DNA from: Planctomycetota bacterium | GTDB taxonomy: Bacteria; Planctomycetota; Planctomycetia; Pirellulales; Pirellulaceae | Direction: 5' to 3' | DNA: 64,000 bases | NCBI GenBank assembly: GCA_014381825.1 | Contig: JACNKX010000129.1 | Location: forward strand, 1-64,000 | In this document: one piece after another, positions 3,273 to 44,610 of the stretch | How the letters are laid out: each line of letters begins with the position of its first letter | Numbering within the stretch: the first letter of the stretch is position 1 | Translations under genes and position numbers: made by a program | The notes under the pieces: generated by a model | Seen by the model: the letters and a program-made list of their open reading frames with translations, nothing else | The model's database searches: none | Told to the model about the DNA's origin: nothing

Positions 3273-3831
3273 AGCGACCGCGCATGTGGTTACTCAGCTG
3301 GAAGACAAAGGCGTGCCGTACATGCTTGTTGGAGCTCTGTCGAGTAACGCTTATGGGATTCCACGCGCGACAAAGGATGCGGACATTGTTGTGTCGTTTG
3401 ATTCGATTGGCGTTGTCGAGTTCGCGAAGAGCCTGGGAAGCGGCTTCGAACTAGATCGTCAAATGCGAATGGAAACGATCACAAACTCGATTCGCAACAT
3501 CATTACTTATAAACCCACGAATTTTGACATCGAGTTGTTTCGGCTCAGTCACGATGAACACCACAAAGAACGTTTTGATCGTCGGAAACGTCGTTGGTTG
3601 GACGAGATCAAACGAGAGGCTTGTCTTCCATCTGCCGAAGATGTTGTCATTCAAAAACTGAGATGGAAGCGGCGCAAGGATCTGGACGATGCTGAAAACA
3701 TTCTCGCAGTCCGAGCGAAACAGTTAGATTGGGACTATCTCACTCACTGGACGAAGATTCACGGCACGAATGATTTACTCAATCAACTGCGTGACGAATG
3801 TCCGAATCTCGATTCGCTCGATGAAGAGTGA
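3259..3831 (+). CDS. Nucleotidyltransferase-fold protein (AbiEii/DUF6036-like)
   Basis: The 190-residue product (ATG 3259) carries VGALSSNAYGIPRATKDADI at about residues 24-43. This resembles the polymerase-beta type nucleotidyltransferase core, with the two metal-binding aspartates at D40 and D42. The first glycine pair is altered to GA. A basic segment HKERFDRRKRRW and a helical C-terminal part (QKLRWKRRKDLDDAENILAVR) resemble AbiEii-like or DUF6036-like proteins, where this half supports the catalytic domain. An in-frame start at 3220 exists, but it would place 13 extra residues over the upstream gene, so 3259 is preferred. The substrate is unknown. With the small upstream gene it forms a compact cassette of the size seen for toxin-antitoxin pairs. 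Confidence 0.75.
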   Translation: MNSFEATAHVVTQLEDKGVPYMLVGALSSNAYGIPRATKDADIVVSFDSIGVVEFAKSLGSGFELDRQMRMETITNSIRNIITYKPTNFDIELFRLSHDEHHKERFDRRKRRWLDEIKREACLPSAEDVVIQKLRWKRRKDLDDAENILAVRAKQLDWDYLTHWTKIHGTNDLLNQLRDECPNLDSLDEE

Positions 3832-3880: not shown

Positions 3881-6703
3881 ATGACCGTAAACGTTTGCGC
3901 CTTTTCACGAGTAGCAGTGCCATCCTTTGTTGTAACGACGTTGTTGCTCGTCACCTTGTCGTCTGTTGCTAAGTCTCAATCCGTTAACGATCTCCTTCCC
4001 GACGACACGGGATACCACCGCACGGTCGTTCCATTCTTCAAACAGCATTGCCTGCCTTGCCACGGCCCAGATGATCAGCAAGCAGATTTGCGAGTCGATC
4101 AACACTTGCCGAACGACTTCCTCGACCTCGTCGCGAAAGGCAAGTGGGGCGAGGTGGTGAATGTCTTGAACAGCCACGAGATGCCGCCGGAAGATGAGCC
4201 GCAACCGAAGGTGGAAGAAGTCGCAAAGGTTGTCGATTGGATCACACAGCAGATGGTTCGCGCCGAGTTGCATCGTCGTGATTCCGCAATCGTCGTGCGA
4301 CGAATGAACCGCGCGGAGTATCGCAACACGATTCGCGATCTGATTGGGATCAATTTTGACACCGCCGGTTTCCCTCAGGATCCGCCAACGGGCGGCTTCG
4401 ACAACAATGGTGGAGCGCTGACGGTTTCGCCACTGCACCTGGAACTGTATTTCGCCGCTGCTCGAAAGATTCTTGATCAGGCTTTGGTTGAAGGCGAGCA
4501 GCCGCCAAGCTTGAAGTGGCGGTTCGAACCCGACTCGGGCGATTCGGATTCAAACCGAGTTGTCTACGATGGCCAGCGTGTGATCGTGAATGGCGCGAAG
4601 AGTCGAGTCGAGAACGGCTTCAAAGTGATGCATCATGAAAGCTGGGATCGGAAGCTGAACGCTCGCGACTTCGCCTTGCCGCACGAAGGAGACTATGTCA
4701 TCCGGATTCGAGCGGGTGGGAAAGTTCCAACTCGCGAAGAAGTAGTTAAGTCGGCAGACAAGTTTCTCAAGGAACGAATGGAACGCGAGCTTGCAAAGAA
4801 ACCGGATCGCGATCGATGGATTCGACCTCAGTACGAGAATGATCTAAAGCATTTTCAGACAGATCGCATGTACGATTATGGTCCGCCGCGACTAAAGCTG
4901 ATTCAGAATCTTGGTGGCCAGCCGCGTGTCTTGGCCGAGTTTGATGTGGCGGCTTCGGTCAACGAGCCAGAGATCTACGAAATTCCCTGTCGCTTCACGA
5001 CGCAGAGGGCTGGCATAACAGTCGATTACGCTTATTCGATCCCTAAGGAACTAGAGAATTTCTGGTTTCAAACCGGTGACGAGTTTGCTCGCCCTGAACT
5101 GTGGGTGGATTAGTTTGAAATTGAAGGGCCACTCTACGACGCTTGGCCTCCGCAGAGCCATAAAAAGCTCTTGTTCGACTCCACTTTGCGCAATCAAAAC
5201 GAACGAGAGTATGCACGACAAGTGCTGGCGCGATTCATGCGACGAGCGTATCGTCGCCCGGTGACAGATCAGGAAGTTGAGGCGAAGCTAACTCTCTACG
5301 ACACGGTACGCAAAGATGCACCTTCGCTAATTCACGCCATTAAGACCCCGCTGATCGCAGTACTCGTCTCGCCGCACTTTCTATATCTTGCGGAACCCAA
5401 TGTCGCCGTTTCGCTCCGCGAAACGAACTCTTCGACGCCCAGTCGCACGGACGACTTGCACACGTTTTCCGACAAACGCGGCCGCAAGCTCAAAGCGAGA
5501 GTTCTAGCTGTCACGAACGGCGACGTAAAAATCGAAAGGGAGGATGGAAAGCAATTTACGTTGTCGGTTGATATCTTCACGCAAGAAGATCAAGCGTTCG
5601 TTCGCAACATTATCGAAGCGTCTCGCGCGGGCGACGGGCCTCAAGTGAGCAATAGTGGGCGGTGGCTTGACGACATGGAACTCGCCTGTCGATTGTCGTA
5701 CTTCCTCTGGAGCAGTATGCCTGATGAAGAGTTGTCGCATCTTGCTGAGCGGGGCGAACTAGCAAACGACCAGACGCTTGCCGCTCAAGTCAACCGAATG
5801 CTGGCAGATCCGAAATCAGAAGCGTTCGTTGAAAACTTTGCAGGTCAGTGGCTGGGGCTCAGAGAAGTTGGCGCGAACCCGCCGGCGGCAGACCTGTATC
5901 CGCGATACGATCGGCACTTGGAACTATCAATCGTTGGCGAATCAAAAGCCTTCTTCCGCGAGATTCTCCAGCACAATCTAAGTGTAATGAACTTCGTGCG
6001 ATCTGATTTCGTTGTGATCAACGAGCGGCTCGGGCGATATTACGGAATTCCCGATGTGCGTGGCGATCACTTCCGTCGCGTGAGCGTACCGGAAGGTGTT
6101 CACCGGGGAGGAGTTGTCACGCAAGCATCCGTTCTCTCGACGACTTCGAACGGAACGCGGACCTCGCCTGTGAAGCGAGGGACATGGATTATGAAGAACG
6201 TCCTGGGCATCGATCCCGGATTGCCCGTCGCCAACGCCGGTGAAATCGCGCCGAAGGTACCGGGGCTCGACAAAGCAACCGTACGGCAGCGGCTCGAGAT
6301 TCATCGCGAACTGCCACAGTGTGCACGCTGTCACAACAAGATCGATCCGCTCGGATTCGCACTCGAGAACTTTAATGCCGCCGGTGATTGGCGGGATCGC
6401 GAAGGCTTTGGCTACAAAGGTCGAATCGGCCCGAATGATCCACTGATCGACGCGTCGTCGAAGCTGCTCGATGGCACCGAGATCATAGGCGTCGACGGCT
6501 TGCGAGATGCTTTGATGGACCAACAAGATCTGTTTTTGAAGTGTCTGGCAGGCAAGATGCTTTCGTACGCATTAGGTCGCGAGCTTGGAATTGCCGATCG
6601 CGTTCATGTTGATGCAGCCGTTCAGCACTTGAAAGAGAACGGCGACACGTTGAATTCGTTGGTGACATTCGTTGTCACGTCAAAGCCGTTTAGCCAAAAA
6701 TAG
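3881..6703 (+). pseudogene. PSD/DUF1592-type cytochrome protein with in-frame TAG
   Basis: This is a single reading frame of 941 codons broken only by TAG at 5111-5113 (codon 411). ATG 3881 opens a signal peptide (VPSFVVTTLLLVTLSS). A haem-binding CLPCH follows, then a DUF1587-like segment (RRMNRAEYRNTIRDLIG). A beta-rich region ends in RPELWVD, and the stop falls there; translation then continues in the same frame as FEIEGPLYDAWPP. Relatives read WVDWFEIEGP, so a G-to-A change of a TGG codon explains the stop. Beyond it lie DUF1595 (RRAYRRPVTDQEV), an SHD1-like insert, DUF1592 (RLSYFLWSSMPDEEL), DUF1588 (with CARCH) and DUF1585. The family is secreted and largely of unknown function. The stop could be a recent mutation, a sequencing error or readthrough; the rest of the frame is intact, which argues against old decay. 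Confidence 0.85.
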
Positions 6704-6780: not shown

Positions 6781-8118
6781 ATGAAACCGCGACCACTCCT
6801 CTCTCGGCGCCATGTTCTCCGCGGAATCGGCGCATGCCTCAGCTTGCCGCTCCTTGAAGCGATGCTTCCGCGAGCTTTAGCTCGACCATCGACTTACGAG
6901 CCACTCGAATCATCGCTCGGCGTGCAGCCACGAATGATTTGCTGCTACGTGCCCAACGGTGTCAACATCATGGAGTGGGTGCCCGAGTCGACGGGTAAGG
7001 ACTACAAGTTGTCGAAGTCGCTCGAGACGTTGAAGGAGCTACGCGATGACTTCACCGTCGTATCTGGTATCGGTCACCCGGCTTCGAAAGGTGGTCACAG
7101 CGGTGCGGATACTTGGTTGACCGGAGCCGATCTTCAAGTCGTGCCCGGAAGCGACTACACGAACACCGTCTCGGCGGATCAAATCGTAGCGGAACTCCAC
7201 GGTAAACAGACTCGCTTTCCGTCGCTTCAGCTATCCGACTCGTCAGGCACCGGTTCGGCGGGACACAGCCATACACTTTCCTTCGACCGCAGTGGCACAC
7301 CCGTTCCCGCTGAAGACTCTCCGCGTCGGCTGTTCGAACGATTGTTCGTTCCAGAGAGTGCAGGCGATCGCGCCGCGACACTTCGTCGATACGCTGAAAA
7401 GAAATCGATCTTGGACAGCGTGTTGAAGGAAGCCAAGTCACTCAATCGGCGGCTCGGAAAGAAGGACCAAGAGAAGTTCGACCAGTATCTATCGTCGGTG
7501 CGCGCAACGGAGCAACGCGTCCAGCGGCTTGAATCCTGGATCGACATTCCGAAACCCGAGATCGATTCAAAGGGTCTGCAACTCGAAAGCCAGCCCCACA
7601 ACGCCCACGATCGACCGATGTGGATCGACGTGATGATGGATTTGTCTTATCTGGCGTTCGTCACCGATACGACTCGCGTCATTACCTACGAGTGGTCGCG
7701 CGAGGCGGGAGGGTACGGCGGTGGCGGCGAGAATCATCACGAACTTTCGCACCACGGTGGCGATGCAGGAATGTTGCAGAAGTTGGGTATCATCGATCGC
7801 TTTCACCTCGGTCATCTTGCCCGATTCATGCAGTTTCTCAAGTCTACACAAGACGGCGAAGGGAACATGCTCGACCAGACGATGATCCTGTTCGGTTCAG
7901 GCATGAACAGCGGGAAGGGTGGCGAACACTCGCCGAAGAACTTGCCGCTACTCATGGCAGGCGGACATCGGCTTGGCCTCCAGCATGGGCAGCATCTCGC
8001 GTTCGACGTTGACGATCATCCGCCGATGGCGAACTTGTTACTGACGATGGTTCAGAAGATGGGTGTGGAAACGGATTCGTTCCGCGACGCGACCGGCACA
8101 TTGGGCGAGTTGGCCTGA
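6781..8118 (+). CDS. DUF1552 family secreted protein
   Basis: The 445-residue product starts with a twin-arginine-like export signal (SRRHVLRGIG at residues 8-17, followed by a hydrophobic stretch). The body is that of DUF1552: YVPNGVNIMEW, GHPASKGGHSGADTWLTG, a helical middle with the segment RATEQRVQRLESW, and SREAGGYGGGGENHHELSHH near residue 310. In planctomycetes this family nearly always sits directly downstream of a DUF1592-type gene, as here (77 nt gap), so the pair probably acts together outside the cytoplasm. The biochemical role is not established. If the upstream TAG abolishes the partner, this gene may be orphaned. Confidence 0.92.
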   Translation: MKPRPLLSRRHVLRGIGACLSLPLLEAMLPRALARPSTYEPLESSLGVQPRMICCYVPNGVNIMEWVPESTGKDYKLSKSLETLKELRDDFTVVSGIGHPASKGGHSGADTWLTGADLQVVPGSDYTNTVSADQIVAELHGKQTRFPSLQLSDSSGTGSAGHSHTLSFDRSGTPVPAEDSPRRLFERLFVPESAGDRAATLRRYAEKKSILDSVLKEAKSLNRRLGKKDQEKFDQYLSSVRATEQRVQRLESWIDIPKPEIDSKGLQLESQPHNAHDRPMWIDVMMDLSYLAFVTDTTRVITYEWSREAGGYGGGGENHHELSHHGGDAGMLQKLGIIDRFHLGHLARFMQFLKSTQDGEGNMLDQTMILFGSGMNSGKGGEHSPKNLPLLMAGGHRLGLQHGQHLAFDVDDHPPMANLLLTMVQKMGVETDSFRDATGTLGELA

Positions 8119-32860: not shown

Positions 32861-35800
32861 ATGACAGGTGATTCGGACTCGAAGACGATTCGCTTTGGCC
32901 ATTTGATGGACGAGTTTGTCGAACGGTTCCGTAACGGCGAGCAACCTTCGCTGACCGAGTACATTTCGCAGCATCCGGACCTTGAGGACGACATCCGCGA
33001 GTTGTTCCCGGCTCTGGCGATGATGGAGCACGCAGGCGACGTCGATCAGACTGGCGATCCAAACAGCGGCAAAGTCACGGCGGATGGTAACCTCCCGAAG
33101 CAACTAGGCGACTATCGAATCGTTCGTGAAGTCGGACGAGGCGGCATGGGCGTTGTTTATGAAGCGGAACAAGAGTCGCTGGGCCGCCGAGTTGCTCTGA
33201 AGATATTGCCATTCTACGCGTTGATGGACCCGAAGCACTTACAGCGATTTCATCGCGAAGCACGCGCTGCGGCTCAGCTTCACCATTCGAACATAGTTCC
33301 CGTCTTCGGAGTCGGCGAACATCAAGGTGTTCACTTTTACGCGATGCAGTTCATTCAAGGCCAAGGATTGGACGATGTGCTTGATGAATTGCAGTTGCTG
33401 CGAGCACGACGAGCGGAAGTGAAGGGCAAACCGAATACAGAGAAGCCAAACTCGACACGGGAAAACGAGAGCATTGCGGCCGAGTTGCTAAGTGGCGAGT
33501 TCAGCGAGGTCGAATTATCGGCGAAATCGGCAGGCGGTGATTCCGACCCGCACTCCAGCTCTCTTCCAAAGGCAGAGGAACCTAAAGGAGCCGACTCGTC
33601 GTCATCGGTCTCGTTACCGGGACACGATAATTCATCTGGTTCAACATCGTCCGATCAGCAGTACTTTCGAAGTGTGGCTCGGATCGGAACGCAGGTCGCT
33701 GACGCGCTTGCCTATGCTCACACTCACGGAGTCTTGCACCGCGATATCAAGCCATCGAACTTGTTGCTCGATGCCAGCGGCACGGTGTGGGTAACGGACT
33801 TCGGCTTGGCGAAGACGGAAGAGGAAGACTTAACGCGAACCGGGGACTTCGTCGGGACGTTGCGATATATGGCCCCAGAACGCTTCCGCGGTTGGTCCGA
33901 TCCTCGAAGTGATATCTATAGTCTTGGACTAACGCTTTACGAACTGCTCACCATGCGACCGGCATTCGACGAGACGGATCGTGGGCGATTGGTCAAGCAA
34001 GTCACGCAAGATAATCCCGTGACGCCTCGGCGGCTCGATCCACGCATTCCCCGCGACTTGGAGACAATCGTTCTAAAGGCGATCACCAAAGAGCCATATA
34101 CTCGCTATCAATCCGCGAGCGCAGTTGCCGATGACTTGCGGCTGTATCTCGCTGACAAGCCGATCGAAGCGCGGCGGACTCCGATGATAGAGCGCGCTTG
34201 GTTGTGGTGCCGTCGTAATCCGATCGTGGCTAGTCTTCTTGGCCTGGTTTCTTTGCTTCTTGTTGTCATCGCATTTGGTTCGGCGTTCGCGGCTTTGCGT
34301 TTGCAAGCGAAACACGAAACTGCTATGGAGAATCTGACGCGTGCAACAAGTGCGGAAGCCAAAGCGACTCGAAACTTGTACGACGCCTACTTAGCACGTT
34401 CTCGCGCCGAACGAAGAAGCAATCGGCCGGGTCGGCGGCTGAACGGATTGAGTGCTGTGCGGAAAGCGGCTCAGCAGTTAGCATCATTGAACGTGACTGA
34501 GGCAGAGAAATTCGAGCTTCGCAATGAAGCCATCGCGTGCATGGCATTGATGGATTTGAAGCTTCGCGTGAAGCATGTGCATGATGATGGCTGGGAGCAA
34601 ATTGCGTATTCGACGTGGGCTTTTGATTCCAAACTCGAACGCTATGCACATGAGACGGATACCGATATCATCATCCGTCGCACCTCGGATGGTGTGCAGT
34701 TGCACAAGCTAAGAGGGACGGAGCAGTTCGCTCATCGTGGAATGCGACCGTACATCCGTTTCAGCCCTGATGGTAAGTTTCTGGTTGTCCGCGGTTTTAT
34801 TGAAGGTGATCGCAATTGGCTATGGATGTGGGACATCGAGAAAGAAGAGCTAGTCTGGTCGGTTCATTCCGGTGGTCACGGACGATCGCTAGAGAACTTT
34901 AGCTTCTCACCCGACTCTAAACAGTTTGTCTATCTTGCTCGCTATGCCAAACTCACGATCTGCGATACAGCCTCGGGTAATTCGATCAAGCAGGCGAATC
35001 TTCAAAGCCTGCCACGTTTCATCGTATGGTCGCCCGTTGGTGATCGGATGGTCCTCGGCTCAGATGAGCGAAACACTTCGCAAGATGCTGCGAGTCAGGT
35101 GATCCAGCTTTTTGACATCGAATCGATGGAGCTACTCGATTCGATCCCTGTCCCAACGGCGGTGTTGTCAGCCGCGTGGAGTTCGGATGGAAGGTTCGTC
35201 GTCACGCCGTGCTTGGACACTCGGACATACATTTGGGACACCGAAGACTTGGATCAGCCACACGCCGTATGTGAAGGTCATCGAGGTCGCGTGATGCATG
35301 CGGTTTATAACCAGCAGGGGGATCTGCTGGTGTCAGCCGGGCGAGATTTAGAGTCGCGGATTTGGGATCCCGTTACGAGTGATGAACTTGTGGTCTTTGA
35401 TGCACCAGCGCTTAGATTCTCTCGTGATGACTCAGCGATCGCATCTGCTACGCCTGGGGATAGCGTTTCCGTCTGGGATGTCGTTCGTTCTCGCGAGTGT
35501 CGCGTCTTACGTGTTCCCGAGGTCCAAGAACGAGACAACACCGTCAGAAGTATTGCCTTCAGCCGTGATGGCAAGCTCATTGCATCGGGCAGCTATGTCC
35601 AGGGCACATGTATTTGGGATGTCGAGTCTGGAAAGTTGGTTCAACAAATTCCCGAGTGGAACACGAGCCGCGTGTTTTTTGATCGGCGCAGCGAGTGGTT
35701 CTTTGCGGCCGGGGCGACGGGACTGTGGCGTTGGCGTTTGGAAACGCTTCGAGATCCTAATCCTGAACCGTTTCTCGTAAATCCCGAACTCCTACTTGGC

Positions 35801-36469
35801 GTAACGTCCATGGACGTGAGTTCCGATGGTCACACGATGGCGGCGCAATCTGGCGAAACGATCCACATATTTGAACCGGATTCACCGGAGAACGCTGTGA
35901 AGATACCAGGCGTACGACACGAGCGGTTGGCTGCGGTCAGCCCGGATGGGGATCACATTGTCGCAGGCACTCCTTATCGACCGAACATTCGAGTGTGGAA
36001 CCGCAAGACGCAAGAATTGGTCACCGAGATTCCGGCGTTGCGAAACGAAGTACAAGCGATTGAGTTTAGCCCTGATGGTCGTTGGCTTTCGGTTTGCATG
36101 CCGGGCAGCTATGTGCTCTATGACGCTGAAACCTGGCAAGAGCACCGACGGATCGACCGTAGTCAAGTTGGTTCCGGTCAGATCGCGTTTCGCGAAGACA
36201 TGAGCATCGTTGCGGTCACGGATCTGTGGTACACGCGATTGTTCGATGTAGAAACCTGGCGAGAATTCGCTCGTTTACGAGGTCCGCGGGCGCCACGCCT
36301 CAATCGCCATGGAAACGAAGTCGGATGTGGTATCAGTTTTAGTCCTGATGGAAACCTTCTGGCAGTAGGAACAGAAGACGGAGTGATTCAACTGTGGGAT
36401 TTGCAACGCGTGCGATCCAACCTCGCCGAGATGGGTCTTGATTGGCAAGTCGACGTTGCGATGGACTAA
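32861..36469 (+). CDS. Membrane Ser/Thr protein kinase with WD40 repeats
   Basis: The 1202-residue product has a short N-terminal helical domain (about 10-60), then a Hanks-type kinase domain: G-loop VGRGGMGVVYEAE (91-103), K114 in VALKIL, LHRDIKPSN (about 292-300) and TDFGLAK (about 312-318), followed by MAPERFRG. An unusual hydrophilic insert of about 90 residues rich in Ser, Lys and Glu (about 185-270) splits the domain before the catalytic loop. One membrane segment lies at about 453-480 (VASLLGLVSLLLVVIAFGSA), then a coiled-coil-like stretch and WD40-like repeats (about 580-1190: FSPDGKFLVV, WSSDGRFVVT, ISFSPDGNLLAVG). The repeats would face the periplasm if the kinase is cytoplasmic. 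It follows the ECF gene, a known planctomycete pairing. Its stop overlaps the convergent SDR gene by 4 nt. Confidence 0.94.
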   Translation: MTGDSDSKTIRFGHLMDEFVERFRNGEQPSLTEYISQHPDLEDDIRELFPALAMMEHAGDVDQTGDPNSGKVTADGNLPKQLGDYRIVREVGRGGMGVVYEAEQESLGRRVALKILPFYALMDPKHLQRFHREARAAAQLHHSNIVPVFGVGEHQGVHFYAMQFIQGQGLDDVLDELQLLRARRAEVKGKPNTEKPNSTRENESIAAELLSGEFSEVELSAKSAGGDSDPHSSSLPKAEEPKGADSSSSVSLPGHDNSSGSTSSDQQYFRSVARIGTQVADALAYAHTHGVLHRDIKPSNLLLDASGTVWVTDFGLAKTEEEDLTRTGDFVGTLRYMAPERFRGWSDPRSDIYSLGLTLYELLTMRPAFDETDRGRLVKQVTQDNPVTPRRLDPRIPRDLETIVLKAITKEPYTRYQSASAVADDLRLYLADKPIEARRTPMIERAWLWCRRNPIVASLLGLVSLLLVVIAFGSAFAALRLQAKHETAMENLTRATSAEAKATRNLYDAYLARSRAERRSNRPGRRLNGLSAVRKAAQQLASLNVTEAEKFELRNEAIACMALMDLKLRVKHVHDDGWEQIAYSTWAFDSKLERYAHETDTDIIIRRTSDGVQLHKLRGTEQFAHRGMRPYIRFSPDGKFLVVRGFIEGDRNWLWMWDIEKEELVWSVHSGGHGRSLENFSFSPDSKQFVYLARYAKLTICDTASGNSIKQANLQSLPRFIVWSPVGDRMVLGSDERNTSQDAASQVIQLFDIESMELLDSIPVPTAVLSAAWSSDGRFVVTPCLDTRTYIWDTEDLDQPHAVCEGHRGRVMHAVYNQQGDLLVSAGRDLESRIWDPVTSDELVVFDAPALRFSRDDSAIASATPGDSVSVWDVVRSRECRVLRVPEVQERDNTVRSIAFSRDGKLIASGSYVQGTCIWDVESGKLVQQIPEWNTSRVFFDRRSEWFFAAGATGLWRWRLETLRDPNPEPFLVNPELLLGVTSMDVSSDGHTMAAQSGETIHIFEPDSPENAVKIPGVRHERLAAVSPDGDHIVAGTPYRPNIRVWNRKTQELVTEIPALRNEVQAIEFSPDGRWLSVCMPGSYVLYDAETWQEHRRIDRSQVGSGQIAFREDMSIVAVTDLWYTRLFDVETWREFARLRGPRAPRLNRHGNEVGCGISFSPDGNLLAVGTEDGVIQLWDLQRVRSNLAEMGLDWQVDVAMD

Positions 36470-40017: not shown

Positions 40018-43000
40018 ATGAACCGTTTGCCGCCGAAGTCAGTAATATACGTCGCATTGGCTCTGCTTGGTAGCTTCCGTCACGTCGCATCTGCCGATGA
40101 AGAGATAGGTTTTGGTCGGACAATCCGACCGCTACTTGCCGCTAAATGCCTGGCCTGCCACGGCCCGGACGAAGAAGAGCGGGAGGCAGAACTTCGGCTC
40201 GACGTTCGCGAGTCGGCGATCGACGTGGGCGCGATTGTTCCTGGGAACGCTAAGGAAAGCGAGTTGCTTCGTCGTATATTTTCTGACGACCCGGACGAAC
40301 AAATGCCGCCACCAGACTCCGGCGAAACGCTTAGCACCGAACAGCGCGAGCAGTTTCGCCGCTGGATCAGCGAAGGGGCGAAGTACGAGCAGCATTGGGC
40401 ATTCGTTCCCCCGAAACGTCCGGCAACACCGACAATCAGCGATCCGTCGTGGGCTCGCAACGACATTGATCGGTTTGTTCTTGCCAGACTCGACGTAGAG
40501 AAACTATCGCCTTCCGAGGAAGCGGATCGCTATACACTCGTTCGTCGCCTGTATCTCGACTTGATCGGCTTGCCACCAACGCCGGAAGAAGCGGACGCGT
40601 TCGTCAACGACCCGGACCCGTTGGCATACGACAACTTGGTCGACCAGTTGCTCAAGTCAAAGCACTACGGCGAACGCTGGGCGCGATTGTGGCTCGACTT
40701 GGCTCGCTACTCCGACACGAATGGCTACGAGAAAGATCGTCCGCGCACCATGTGGCCGTATCGTGACTGGGTTCTTAAAGCGTTGAATGACGATATGCCG
40801 TTCGACCAATTCACCATTGAACAACTCGCAGGCGAGATGCTACCGAACGCGACGATCGATCAGCGAATTGCCACCGGCTTTCATCGCAACACGATGCTGA
40901 ATGAAGAAGGTGGAATCGACCCACTGGAGTACCGCTTCTATGCGATGGTCGATCGAGTCGCGACGACGGGCACGGTTTGGATGGGGTTGACGACCGGCTG
41001 TGCTCAGTGCCATACGCACAAGTACGACCCGATCTCGCACACCGATTACTACAGTCTCATGGGGCTGTTGAACAATGCCGACGAACCCGATCTGCTGATC
41101 CCGGACCCGGCGACACTCAAGCAACGGCAAGAACTCGAATCGCAGATTGCGGAACTGGAAGCGAGTTTGCCGAGTCACTTTCCGCCGACCGAAGGTGACG
41201 AGCCGGAGGAGACGCGACGCACGAAGAATCTTGAGCGACAATTCAACGAATGGCTGACGAAAAATCAAACCACGGCAATCGACTGGTCCATTGCTCGCCC
41301 GACGACGATGAAGACGAACTTACCGCGATTGGAGTTGCTTGATGACGGCTCGATTCTCTCAACGGGTGACATCACAAAACGCGACGTGTTTACGTTGACC
41401 TTCGATCTCGCGGCGTTCGAACTTCCTGTCACGGCGTTACGGCTGGAAGCATTGCCGGATGAACGGTTGCCGTCGAGCGGACCGGGACGATGCTACTACG
41501 AGGGACGCAAAGGCGATTTCTTTTTGAGCGAGGTTGATGCTTCGGTTGGTGACGTAGCGGTTGAGATTAACTCGGCTTCGCACAGTTACGGGAAGATCAG
41601 CATCGGTAGCGGAAGTGCCGGCGCGACGAACGTCCTCGATAGCGACGGTTCAACCGGTTGGTCAACTTCAGGTCGCGAAGGGCAAGCGAGCCAGTTGGTG
41701 CTTAACTTTGCGAAACCACTCGAACCGACTGGTACGCTGATGATCGAGCTGCTGTTCGAGCGACACTTTGCGGCCAGCCTTGGTCGCTTTCGGTTTTCAG
41801 TGACCGACCATGAATCCGCCAAGGCCACCGAGGCCCCTGTCGAAGTCGAATCATTGCTGGGTCGCGACGCGACGTCTTGGACCGAGCAGGAAGCAGCAAC
41901 CGTTCGATCGTACTTCCTCAGCGTGACGCCGTTGCTTGCCGACGTCCGCAAGCCAATCGACCAGTTGCGAGGCAAACTGCCCGCCGCTCCGATCGCGATG
42001 GTGATGTTAGAGCGACCTGCCGATAATCCTCGTCCGACGCACCGGCATCATCGCGGTGAATACTTGAGTCCGAAAGAAACGGTGGAACCCACCATTCCTG
42101 CGGTCTTCGCTTCGCTCACTGAGAATCCGCCGAAGAACCGGCTGGAGTTTGCGCAGTGGTTGGTAAGCGATTCTAATCCGCTCGCCGCTCGCGTGACGGC
42201 GAATCGAGCGTGGCGAGCGTTCTTTGGCGCAGGTTTGATGCGCACCAGCGGTGACTTCGGCACTCAGTCCGATCCGCCGACACACCCAGAGCTTCTTGAT
42301 TGGCTCGCGATTGAGTTTGTTGAGCGTGGTTGGTCGATGAAGGGGCTGCATCGATTGATCGTCAGCAGCGCCACATATCGTCAGAGATCTCAAGTGGCAA
42401 AGGACATGTACGCGCGCGATCCAGGGAATCGGTTGCTGGCCCGCGGCCCGCGATATCGAGTCGACGCCGAAATGGTGCGCGACATGATGCTGGCGGCCAG
42501 TGGCCGTTTGTCAGCGAAGATGTTCGGACCAAGTGTCTATCCGCCGCAGCCGGCGAGCGTGGCTGCTTTGGCTTACGGCAATGCGAAATGGAATGCATCG
42601 AGCGGTGAAGATCGATATCGGCGTTCGTTGTACACGTTCAGTAAACGAACCGCTCCGTTCGCCGCCTACACTGTCTTTGACGGGCCAACGGGCGAGAACT
42701 GTGTGCCGCGTCGCAATCGAAGTAACACACCGTTGCAGGCGCTGACGCTGCTGAACGACGAGATGTATATCGAGCTGGCTCGCGCTCTGGCGGAACGTCG
42801 AACATCGAACGTTGAACTTCCAACGTCGAAGGAAGAAAGGGCGACGGAGATTTTTCGGCGAGTATTGACTCGACCGCCGCACGATGACGAACTTGCGATG
42901 CTGCTGGAATTTCAAGACGGGCAGCAGAAGAGACTTGAAGCTGGCGACTTGGTGCCAAAGACGATCCTTAGTTCGCAAGAGGGTGACCAGCAAGCCGAAC

Positions 43001-43065
43001 GAGCTTCATGGGTGATGGTCGCCCGCGCCGTGATGAACTTGGACGAAGCGATAACGAAACAGTAA
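40018..43065 (+). CDS. PSCyt1-DUF1549-DUF1553 secreted cytochrome protein
   Basis: The 1015-residue product has a signal peptide ([11 protein letters not shown]), then a Planctomycete cytochrome c domain with CLACHG and QMPPPDSG (about 25-120). DUF1549 follows ([25 protein letters not shown] and [18 protein letters not shown]; a second CAQCH haem-like motif in [21 protein letters not shown]). A central beta-rich insert spans about 400-640, and the C-terminal DUF1553 has [22 protein letters not shown] and [20 protein letters not shown]. These proteins are exported and form a conserved pair with DUF1501 proteins, as here. Their function is unsettled. Residues around [11 protein letters not shown] come from a repeat-like DNA stretch at 42793-42830. 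Confidence 0.94.
42793..42830. repeat. GAACGTTGAAC-type repeat inside coding sequence
   Basis: Within the DUF1553 gene the DNA is built from short variants of GAACGTT and its complement (GAACGTCGAACATCGAAC, GTTGAACTTCCAACGTC). It encodes the low-information stretch [13 protein letters not shown] related run occurs at the start of the DUF1501 gene (GACGTTCAACGTTC near 43193). This looks like a REP-like intergenic repeat captured in a reading frame. Confidence 0.5.
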
Positions 43066-43072
43066 TAGACAA

Positions 43073-43146
43073 GGCGAGCGGGGAACGTCAGTCCCCTGAT
43101 CAAACCCAACGTGGCGCAATCAGGGGACTGACGTCCCCCGCTCGCC
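43073..43146. repeat. Long inverted repeat between PSCyt1 and DUF1501 genes
   Basis: Arms of 28 nt (43073-43100 and 43119-43146) begin GGCGAGCGGGG and end CGCTCGCC and pair with one mismatch; the loop is 18 nt. It starts 8 nt after the upstream stop and ends before the DUF1501 start at 43174. It could be a terminator or mRNA-stability hairpin, or a dispersed palindromic element. Confidence 0.88.
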
Positions 43147-43173
43147 ATTGTGATTACAGCGTAGAGAACGAGA

Positions 43174-44610
43174 ATGCCAAACTTACCTTCCGACGTTCAA
43201 CGTTCAAAGACTCGTCGCCACTTCTTTCAGAACTGTGGAGTTGGTGTCGGCAAAATCGCGCTCGCATCTTTACTGTCACAACAAGCCTTCGCCGATGCCT
43301 CGAACCCGACCGCTCCGAAACCAACACACTTTCCCGCGAAGGCAAAACGCGTCATCTACCTGTTCATGGCGGGAGCGCCAAGCCAACTCGAGTTGTTCGA
43401 TCACAAACCAAAGCTGACCGAGTTGGAAGGAAAGCCAATCCCGCCCGAGGTCATCAAAGGGCAACGCTATGCTTTCATCCAACCTGACGCCGCCGTTCTT
43501 GGACCTCGCTTCAAGTTCAGTAAGCACGGTGAATGCGGCGCAGAGATTTCTGACGTATTGCCGCATCTGTCAAGCATCGTCGATGACATCGCATTCGTTC
43601 GTTCAGTCCATACCGATCTGTTCAACCACTCGCCGGCTCAATTGTTCGTCAACACCGGCAGCGGGATTCCGGGACGACCGAGTATGGGTTCCTGGTTGAG
43701 TTACGGTATCGGGAGTGAGGCGAATGATCTGCCTTCGTTCGTCGTGCTGAACAGCGGCGGGAGTCTGAGCGGTGGAGCGGCGATGTGGAGTAGCGGGTTC
43801 TTGCCGGGGACGCATCAAGGCGTGCCATTTCGGGGCCAGGGCGATCCGATTCTGAATGTCTCCAATCCGAAGGGGTTTGACACACAGGCGCAACGCGACT
43901 CGCTGGATCTGATTCGCAAGATGAACGAACAGCGATTGGACGTTGTCGGCGATCCAGAAATCGCGACACGTATCAACGCTTACGAGATGGCGTTTCGAAT
44001 GCAATCGCGAGCTCCGGAGTTAATGGAGTTTTCCCAAGAAAGTCAGGAGACGTTGGATCTGTACGGTGCCAAACCAGGCGATGGGAAAGCAGCGTTTGCA
44101 AATAATTGTCTATTAGCTCGTCGCATGGCCGAAAGGGGTGTGCGTTTCATTCAGGTCTATCATTCAGGTTGGGATCATCACAGCAACGTTGAAGGCGGTG
44201 TCCGGCAGCAAGCTAAACTGACCGATCAGGCCGTGGCTGGATTAATTCACGATCTGAAACGAACAGGTTTGCTGGACGACACGCTTGTTGTTTGGGGCGG
44301 CGAGTTCGGTCGTACGCCGATGGTCGAAGCGAGTGTAGCGCTCGGTCGCACTAAAGGACGCGACCATCACCCGCAAGCCTATACGATGTGGTTCGCCGGC
44401 GGCGGAATTCGCTCCGGCGTTTCCATCGGAGCAACCGACGAATTGGGCTTTAACGTCGTCGAACACCCTGTGCACGTGACGGACATCCAGGCCACGATTC
44501 TTCACTGCCTGGGCATCGATCATCGTCAACTGGCATTCCGCTTCCGCGGTTTGAACTTTCGACTGACTGGTGTCGAAGAGCATCATCCAGTGGAAGAGTT
44601 GTTGGCGTAG
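43174..44610 (+). CDS. DUF1501 family secreted protein
   Basis: The 478-residue product starts with a Tat-like leader (KTRRHFFQNCGVGVGKIALASLL). The DUF1501 fold, related to the alkaline phosphatase/sulfatase superfamily, is evident from YLFMAGAPSQLELFDHKP, SVHTDLFNHSPAQLFVNTG, VYHSGWDHHSNVEGG and GEFGRTPMVE followed by GRDHHPQAYTMWFAGGG. It pairs with the DUF1549/DUF1553 gene upstream, the standard planctomycete arrangement. Substrates are not known. It is followed by a strong hairpin at 44638-44670. Confidence 0.94.
   Translation: MPNLPSDVQRSKTRRHFFQNCGVGVGKIALASLLSQQAFADASNPTAPKPTHFPAKAKRVIYLFMAGAPSQLELFDHKPKLTELEGKPIPPEVIKGQRYAFIQPDAAVLGPRFKFSKHGECGAEISDVLPHLSSIVDDIAFVRSVHTDLFNHSPAQLFVNTGSGIPGRPSMGSWLSYGIGSEANDLPSFVVLNSGGSLSGGAAMWSSGFLPGTHQGVPFRGQGDPILNVSNPKGFDTQAQRDSLDLIRKMNEQRLDVVGDPEIATRINAYEMAFRMQSRAPELMEFSQESQETLDLYGAKPGDGKAAFANNCLLARRMAERGVRFIQVYHSGWDHHSNVEGGVRQQAKLTDQAVAGLIHDLKRTGLLDDTLVVWGGEFGRTPMVEASVALGRTKGRDHHPQAYTMWFAGGGIRSGVSIGATDELGFNVVEHPVHVTDIQATILHCLGIDHRQLAFRFRGLNFRLTGVEEHHPVEELLA

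Follow-up and report, generated by a model that had tools for sequence, protein, structure and literature searches.

An in-frame TAG in a planctomycete PSCyt/PSD (DUF1592-type) gene is probably a very recent nonsense mutation

Introduction

Why does a planctomycete gene that is otherwise open from end to end carry a stop codon near its middle? The gene lies in the window (the whole 64,000-nucleotide stretch of DNA that was analyzed), which belongs to contig C86 of a 9.69 Mb genome assembly with 238 contigs and an estimated contamination of 2.71%. In Belinky et al. 2021 (PMC7918605), bacterial in-frame stops are described as widespread, mostly short-lived, roughly on the scale of single-nucleotide polymorphisms, and on average under purifying selection; many artifacts are also expected. 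The domains of the interrupted gene also occur with conserved neighboring genes in a study of Verrucomicrobia that reports their functions as not known and raises a connection with the use of carbohydrates as a suggestion (PMC5615132). A first-pass annotation of the window had offered recent pseudogenization, a base error, or readthrough as explanations of the stop, and we weigh these readings here.

Results

The interrupted gene and its immediate surroundings comprise the following features.

3881..6703, + strand: PSCyt/PSD gene (DUF1587-DUF1595-DUF1592-DUF1588-DUF1585), interrupted; 940 codons followed by the terminal TAG
5111..5113, + strand: in-frame TAG at residue 411, from the translation and the alignment of relatives
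3881..5110, + strand: upstream part with PSCyt1 and PSD3, 410 residues expected as truncated product
5114..6700, + strand: downstream part with PSD5, PSD4, PSCyt3 and PSD2, expected to be lost
5420..5665, + strand: SHD1-like stretch between PSD5 and PSD4, from a loose-threshold Pfam match
6781..8118, + strand: uninterrupted HXXSHH (DUF1552) gene, from a domain search

Translation of 3881-6703 confirmed the in-frame TAG as first reported: it is the sole internal stop, the frame is the same on either side of it, and the remainder of the 940 codons is open up to the terminal TAG at 6701-6703. Six PSCyt/PSD domains, all above their Pfam cut-offs, follow one another in the order PSCyt1, PSD3, [TAG], PSD5, PSD4 (DUF1592), PSCyt3, and PSD2, with PSCyt1 passing by a modest margin (27.5 bits versus a cut-off of 22). 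The two halves are thus successive portions of a single known architecture, and the earlier statement that the protein continues as expected past the stop was upheld. Both CXXCH heme motifs are retained, as CLPCH at residue 57 in PSCyt1 and CARCH at residue 814 in PSCyt3. Because the 529 open codons 3′ of the stop encode four ordered domains, this DNA is coding and the TAG is not a chance triplet in noncoding sequence. The automatic ORF call begins at ATG 3770; we placed the start at ATG 3881 because a signal-peptide-like stretch (judged by eye) follows it and because it lies 3′ of position 3831, where the upstream ORF ends.

Domain order and the CXXCH motifs identify the predicted protein as a member of the PSCyt/PSD (DUF1592-type) family. 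It resembles the planctomycete-specific cytochrome c/PSD proteins with an adjacent HXXSHH gene in its domain order, its two heme motifs, and its DUF1552 neighbor, and differs from them by the premature TAG and by the SHD1-like insert, which the alignment of 16 relatives revealed in only one other locus (L059). The SHD1 match had an E value of 0.018 and 15.3 bits against a cut-off of 23.7, with no match at a threshold of 0.01. A DUF1552 homolog lies 3′ of the ortholog in 12 of the 16 relatives; none was found after the gene in L059, L062, L063, and L064 within the 6 kb examined (1.8 kb for L063). Elsewhere, the window holds a second pair, of another PSCyt type and without stops (40018-44610; a PSCyt1-PSCyt2-PSD1 gene and, after it, one with DUF1501), a gene for a 1202-residue protein that joins a protein kinase domain to WD40-type beta-propeller repeats (32861-36469), and one unbroken ORF of 7265 codons on the minus strand (10215-32012).

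The nearest-relative set of 16 loci consisted of L059-L071 together with L030-L032, the latter being three further long matches from a search of 60 related genomes, 58 of which yielded a match. The genome scan was queried with the downstream half of the gene and the best 80 of 396 loci were kept, a selection that may omit the window's own genome or a very near one; the nearest named relatives among these 80 were mostly Planctomycetota and Verrucomicrobiota. At the column of the stop, the aligned relatives carry Trp in 14 of 16 cases and Arg in the other two (L065 and L070), and the frame runs continuously through this point in all 16, with L063 incomplete at its 5′ end. The premature stop therefore stands where 16/16 orthologs read a sense codon, as expected of a pseudogene. 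In the tblastn rows the Trp codon is TGG, so the commonest codon at the column is one transition away from TAG. A tblastn row covered the column in 101 of 138 loci (102 rows, L097 appearing twice); two of these loci are the window gene itself, leaving 100 rows from 99 other loci, the weakest of them badly aligned and little informative. A stop shared by orthologs, which recoding would predict, occurred in 0 of the 16 nearest relatives and 0 of these 100 rows. That TGG and TAG differ by a single change is borne out by these data, and the claim of Trp as the family residue was slightly too strong given the two Arg. The first-pass annotation had named relatives whose gene truly ends at the column as counting against its reading, and we found none among those examined. 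The best matches to the interrupted gene in two congeners had 48% and 45% identity (at most 14 candidates scored per genome) and look like paralogs rather than the ortholog.

Constraint on the frame was counted over 13 relatives with 53.6 to 66.0% identity to the window protein, after L063, L068, and L070 had been dropped as partial or near duplicates; conservation was thus judged for a single genome against distant relatives, and the counts are not dN/dS values. At columns invariant in the 13 relatives, the window gene departs at 0/55 positions before the stop and 1/138 after it, so that relaxed selection is apparent on neither side. The corresponding values for L059, the nearest relative, are 0/55 and 2/139, and the spread over the 13 relatives is 0 to 9 deviations before and 0 to 5 after the stop position. 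At columns allowing one exception, the window gene deviates at 2/88 before and 4/174 after the stop, inside the range of the relatives. Of 8451 possible single changes in the gene, 321 generate a stop; given this number, the lack of decay and of any second lesion points to a very recent loss, if the loss is real. These counts cannot separate a mutation from a base error, since the latter predicts an identical intact frame.

We also considered whether TAG is read as sense in this organism. A sample of 894,068 bases contained 337 long ORFs (stop-to-stop frames of at least 300 codons), of which 128 end in TAG, 121 in TGA, and 88 in TAA, the internal TAG of the window gene being counted among the 128 by construction. 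The genome yielded four RF-1-type matches, none with an internal stop; NCBIfam models assigned the two long ones to release factor 2 (L169), which lies above its cut-off, and release factor 1 (L170), which lies above the NF001859 cut-off and 0.15 bits below that of TIGR00019. TAG being a common terminator in the sample and release factor 1 being present, stop reassignment was rejected. Pyrrolysine decoding was likewise rejected, as the C-terminal PylS model gave 0 matches in the genome (13 of 14 controls matched, one of them above the cut-off). The tRNA search, in which 150 of 271 first-look candidates were scored, returned 67 matches; none of the 65 with an anticodon call carried CUA, and two degenerate matches (C31 and C52:8855) had no readable CUA. 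A suppressor tRNA was thus rejected as far as these matches reach. One of the degenerate matches, a relic at C52:8855-8918, has CCACTAA as its loop, where CTA is shifted by one place from the position of the anticodon, and fits the model only over positions 5 to 66 of 71. It lies in a dense 4 kb array on C52 (L173:8855-12817) of about 20 tRNA genes with mixed anticodons, several of which are low-scoring or degenerate and many of which repeat anticodons found elsewhere in the genome. As to a stimulatory structure, the RNA fold 3′ of the stop had a z score of -1.17, with 23 of 200 shuffles folding equally well.

The genomic background of such stops was counted over six families. The counts cover matched domains only and the entries are matches rather than genes, some genes giving two; for three families a subset of candidates was scored (sulfatase, 150 of 305; PSD1, 150 of 162; PSCyt2, 150 of 159).

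PSD4: 0/28 matches with an in-frame stop
Sulfatase: 2/139 matches with an in-frame stop
PSD1: 1/145 matches with an in-frame stop
HXXSHH: 0/27 matches with an in-frame stop
PSCyt2: 2/144 matches with an in-frame stop, one a short match below cut-off
SBP_bac_10: 3/59 matches with an in-frame stop

With 8 stop-bearing matches in 542 (∼1.5%) and TAA, TAG, and TGA all represented, it is unremarkable here for a single member of an expanded family to carry a lone stop, and such stops are not specific to TAG. Seven of the eight were inspected, C68 being the exception. The sulfatase on C236 (TAA at C236:32182-32184; L233:2183-2185) and the SBP_bac_10 gene on C1 have one stop each in an otherwise open frame, as does the C113 sulfatase, whose stop lies 48 bases from the contig end. 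Copies on C18 and C217 appeared decayed or frame-broken by eye. On C66 (L236 and L235; C66:11000-18500), a gene of a related family has PSCyt1, the initial third of PSCyt2, a TGA, the remaining PSCyt2, and then a partial DUF1501; about 3 kb away, on the opposite strand, lies a decayed PSD1 remnant with two TGA codons. Judged by its structure, the C66 PSCyt1-PSCyt2 gene is a true pseudogene, which implies that genuine lesions happen in such genes in this genome.

A codon-usage screen of 0.89 Mb for split genes found 240 stops flanked by 100 open codons on both sides; the screen is weak, 40 of the 240 having been printed and 19 inspected, including that of the window gene. For fourteen of the 19, a start codon is no more than 7 codons away, and these read as ordinary adjacent genes, whereas the five without a nearby start are the window gene and four others that resemble antisense frames by eye. 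No second clear split gene was seen among the 19. The counts of stops within domain matches serve better as a background than this screen.

Discussion

The stop at 5111-5113 probably arose very recently, as a nonsense mutation in one of the roughly 27 genes with PSD4 in this genome. Most likely, a transition created the stop in one of many paralogs. Ribosomes would halt at the TAG, release factor 1 being encoded, and the product would be a 410-residue fragment with one heme motif, PSCyt1, and PSD3, lacking PSD5, PSD4, PSCyt3, and PSD2. Such a fragment is most likely non-functional, and its loss is probably tolerated because many paralogs remain. We infer in this way that the base is real, the product null, and the persistence of the allele due to redundancy. 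The TAG fits the pattern described by Belinky et al. (PMC7918605), a single stop in a gene otherwise marked by purifying selection; the present case differs in that one genome is considered and conservation is drawn from distant relatives, not from dN/dS. We regard the case as ordinary. Planctomycetes were not mentioned among the listed matches to literature on in-frame stops or readthrough.

Of the three explanations offered initially, recent pseudogenization agrees best with these observations. It ranks above a base error, which we consider rather unlikely yet still a real contender, and recoding is unlikely. Were the TAG a consensus or sequencing error, or the base of a minority strain in the 238-contig draft, the gene would be intact in the organism. 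A single wrong base would account for everything, including the unrelaxed constraint, and the zero decay would be seen equally if the base were wrong or the gene were translated. The draft state of the assembly with its estimated contamination, and the closeness of the C113 sulfatase stop to a contig end (less than 50 bases), also speak for an error. The contig, however, is 74 kb long and the codon sits 5.1 kb into it, the same window sustains an uninterrupted ORF of 7265 codons, and the C66 pseudogene, as judged by its structure, shows that real lesions occur; none of these points is decisive.

Readthrough, or a natural suppressor that yields some full-length protein, seems very improbable and is the reading most disfavored of the initial three. 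Conservation flanks the stop on both sides, and many bacterial in-frame stops are argued to keep dN/dS below 1 (PMC7918605). Against this, TAG ends 128 of 337 long ORFs with release factor 1 present, no CUA anticodon was found in the 65 of 67 tRNA matches that could be read (150 of 271 candidates scored), PylS was not found, the stop is absent from every relative examined, the fold after it gives no clear signal (z of -1.17), and other genes of the genome carry all three kinds of stop. Basal-level readthrough of the TAG is possible. We give hardly any credence to an extension of this idea, that a genuine stop is read through in part and that in-frame stops in the expanded PSCyt/PSD and sulfatase families of this planctomycete would serve to hold redundant paralogs at low expression, as a reversible switch. 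Equally slight are the chances of a functional split into separately made proteins: the downstream part stays open over 529 codons and has an in-frame TTG and ATG 19 and 41 codons past the stop, but the frame runs through in 16 relatives (L063 being incomplete at its 5′ end), and the downstream part would lack a signal peptide though its PSCyt3 bears a CXXCH heme motif, and c-type heme at such motifs is normally loaded outside the cytoplasm.

The preferred reading, a recent nonsense mutation, would make this locus a family member at the first step of loss; were the base wrong, it would be an error of the draft, and on its own the finding has little significance. The proper annotation would be a probable young pseudogene, entered as a single gene and not as two.
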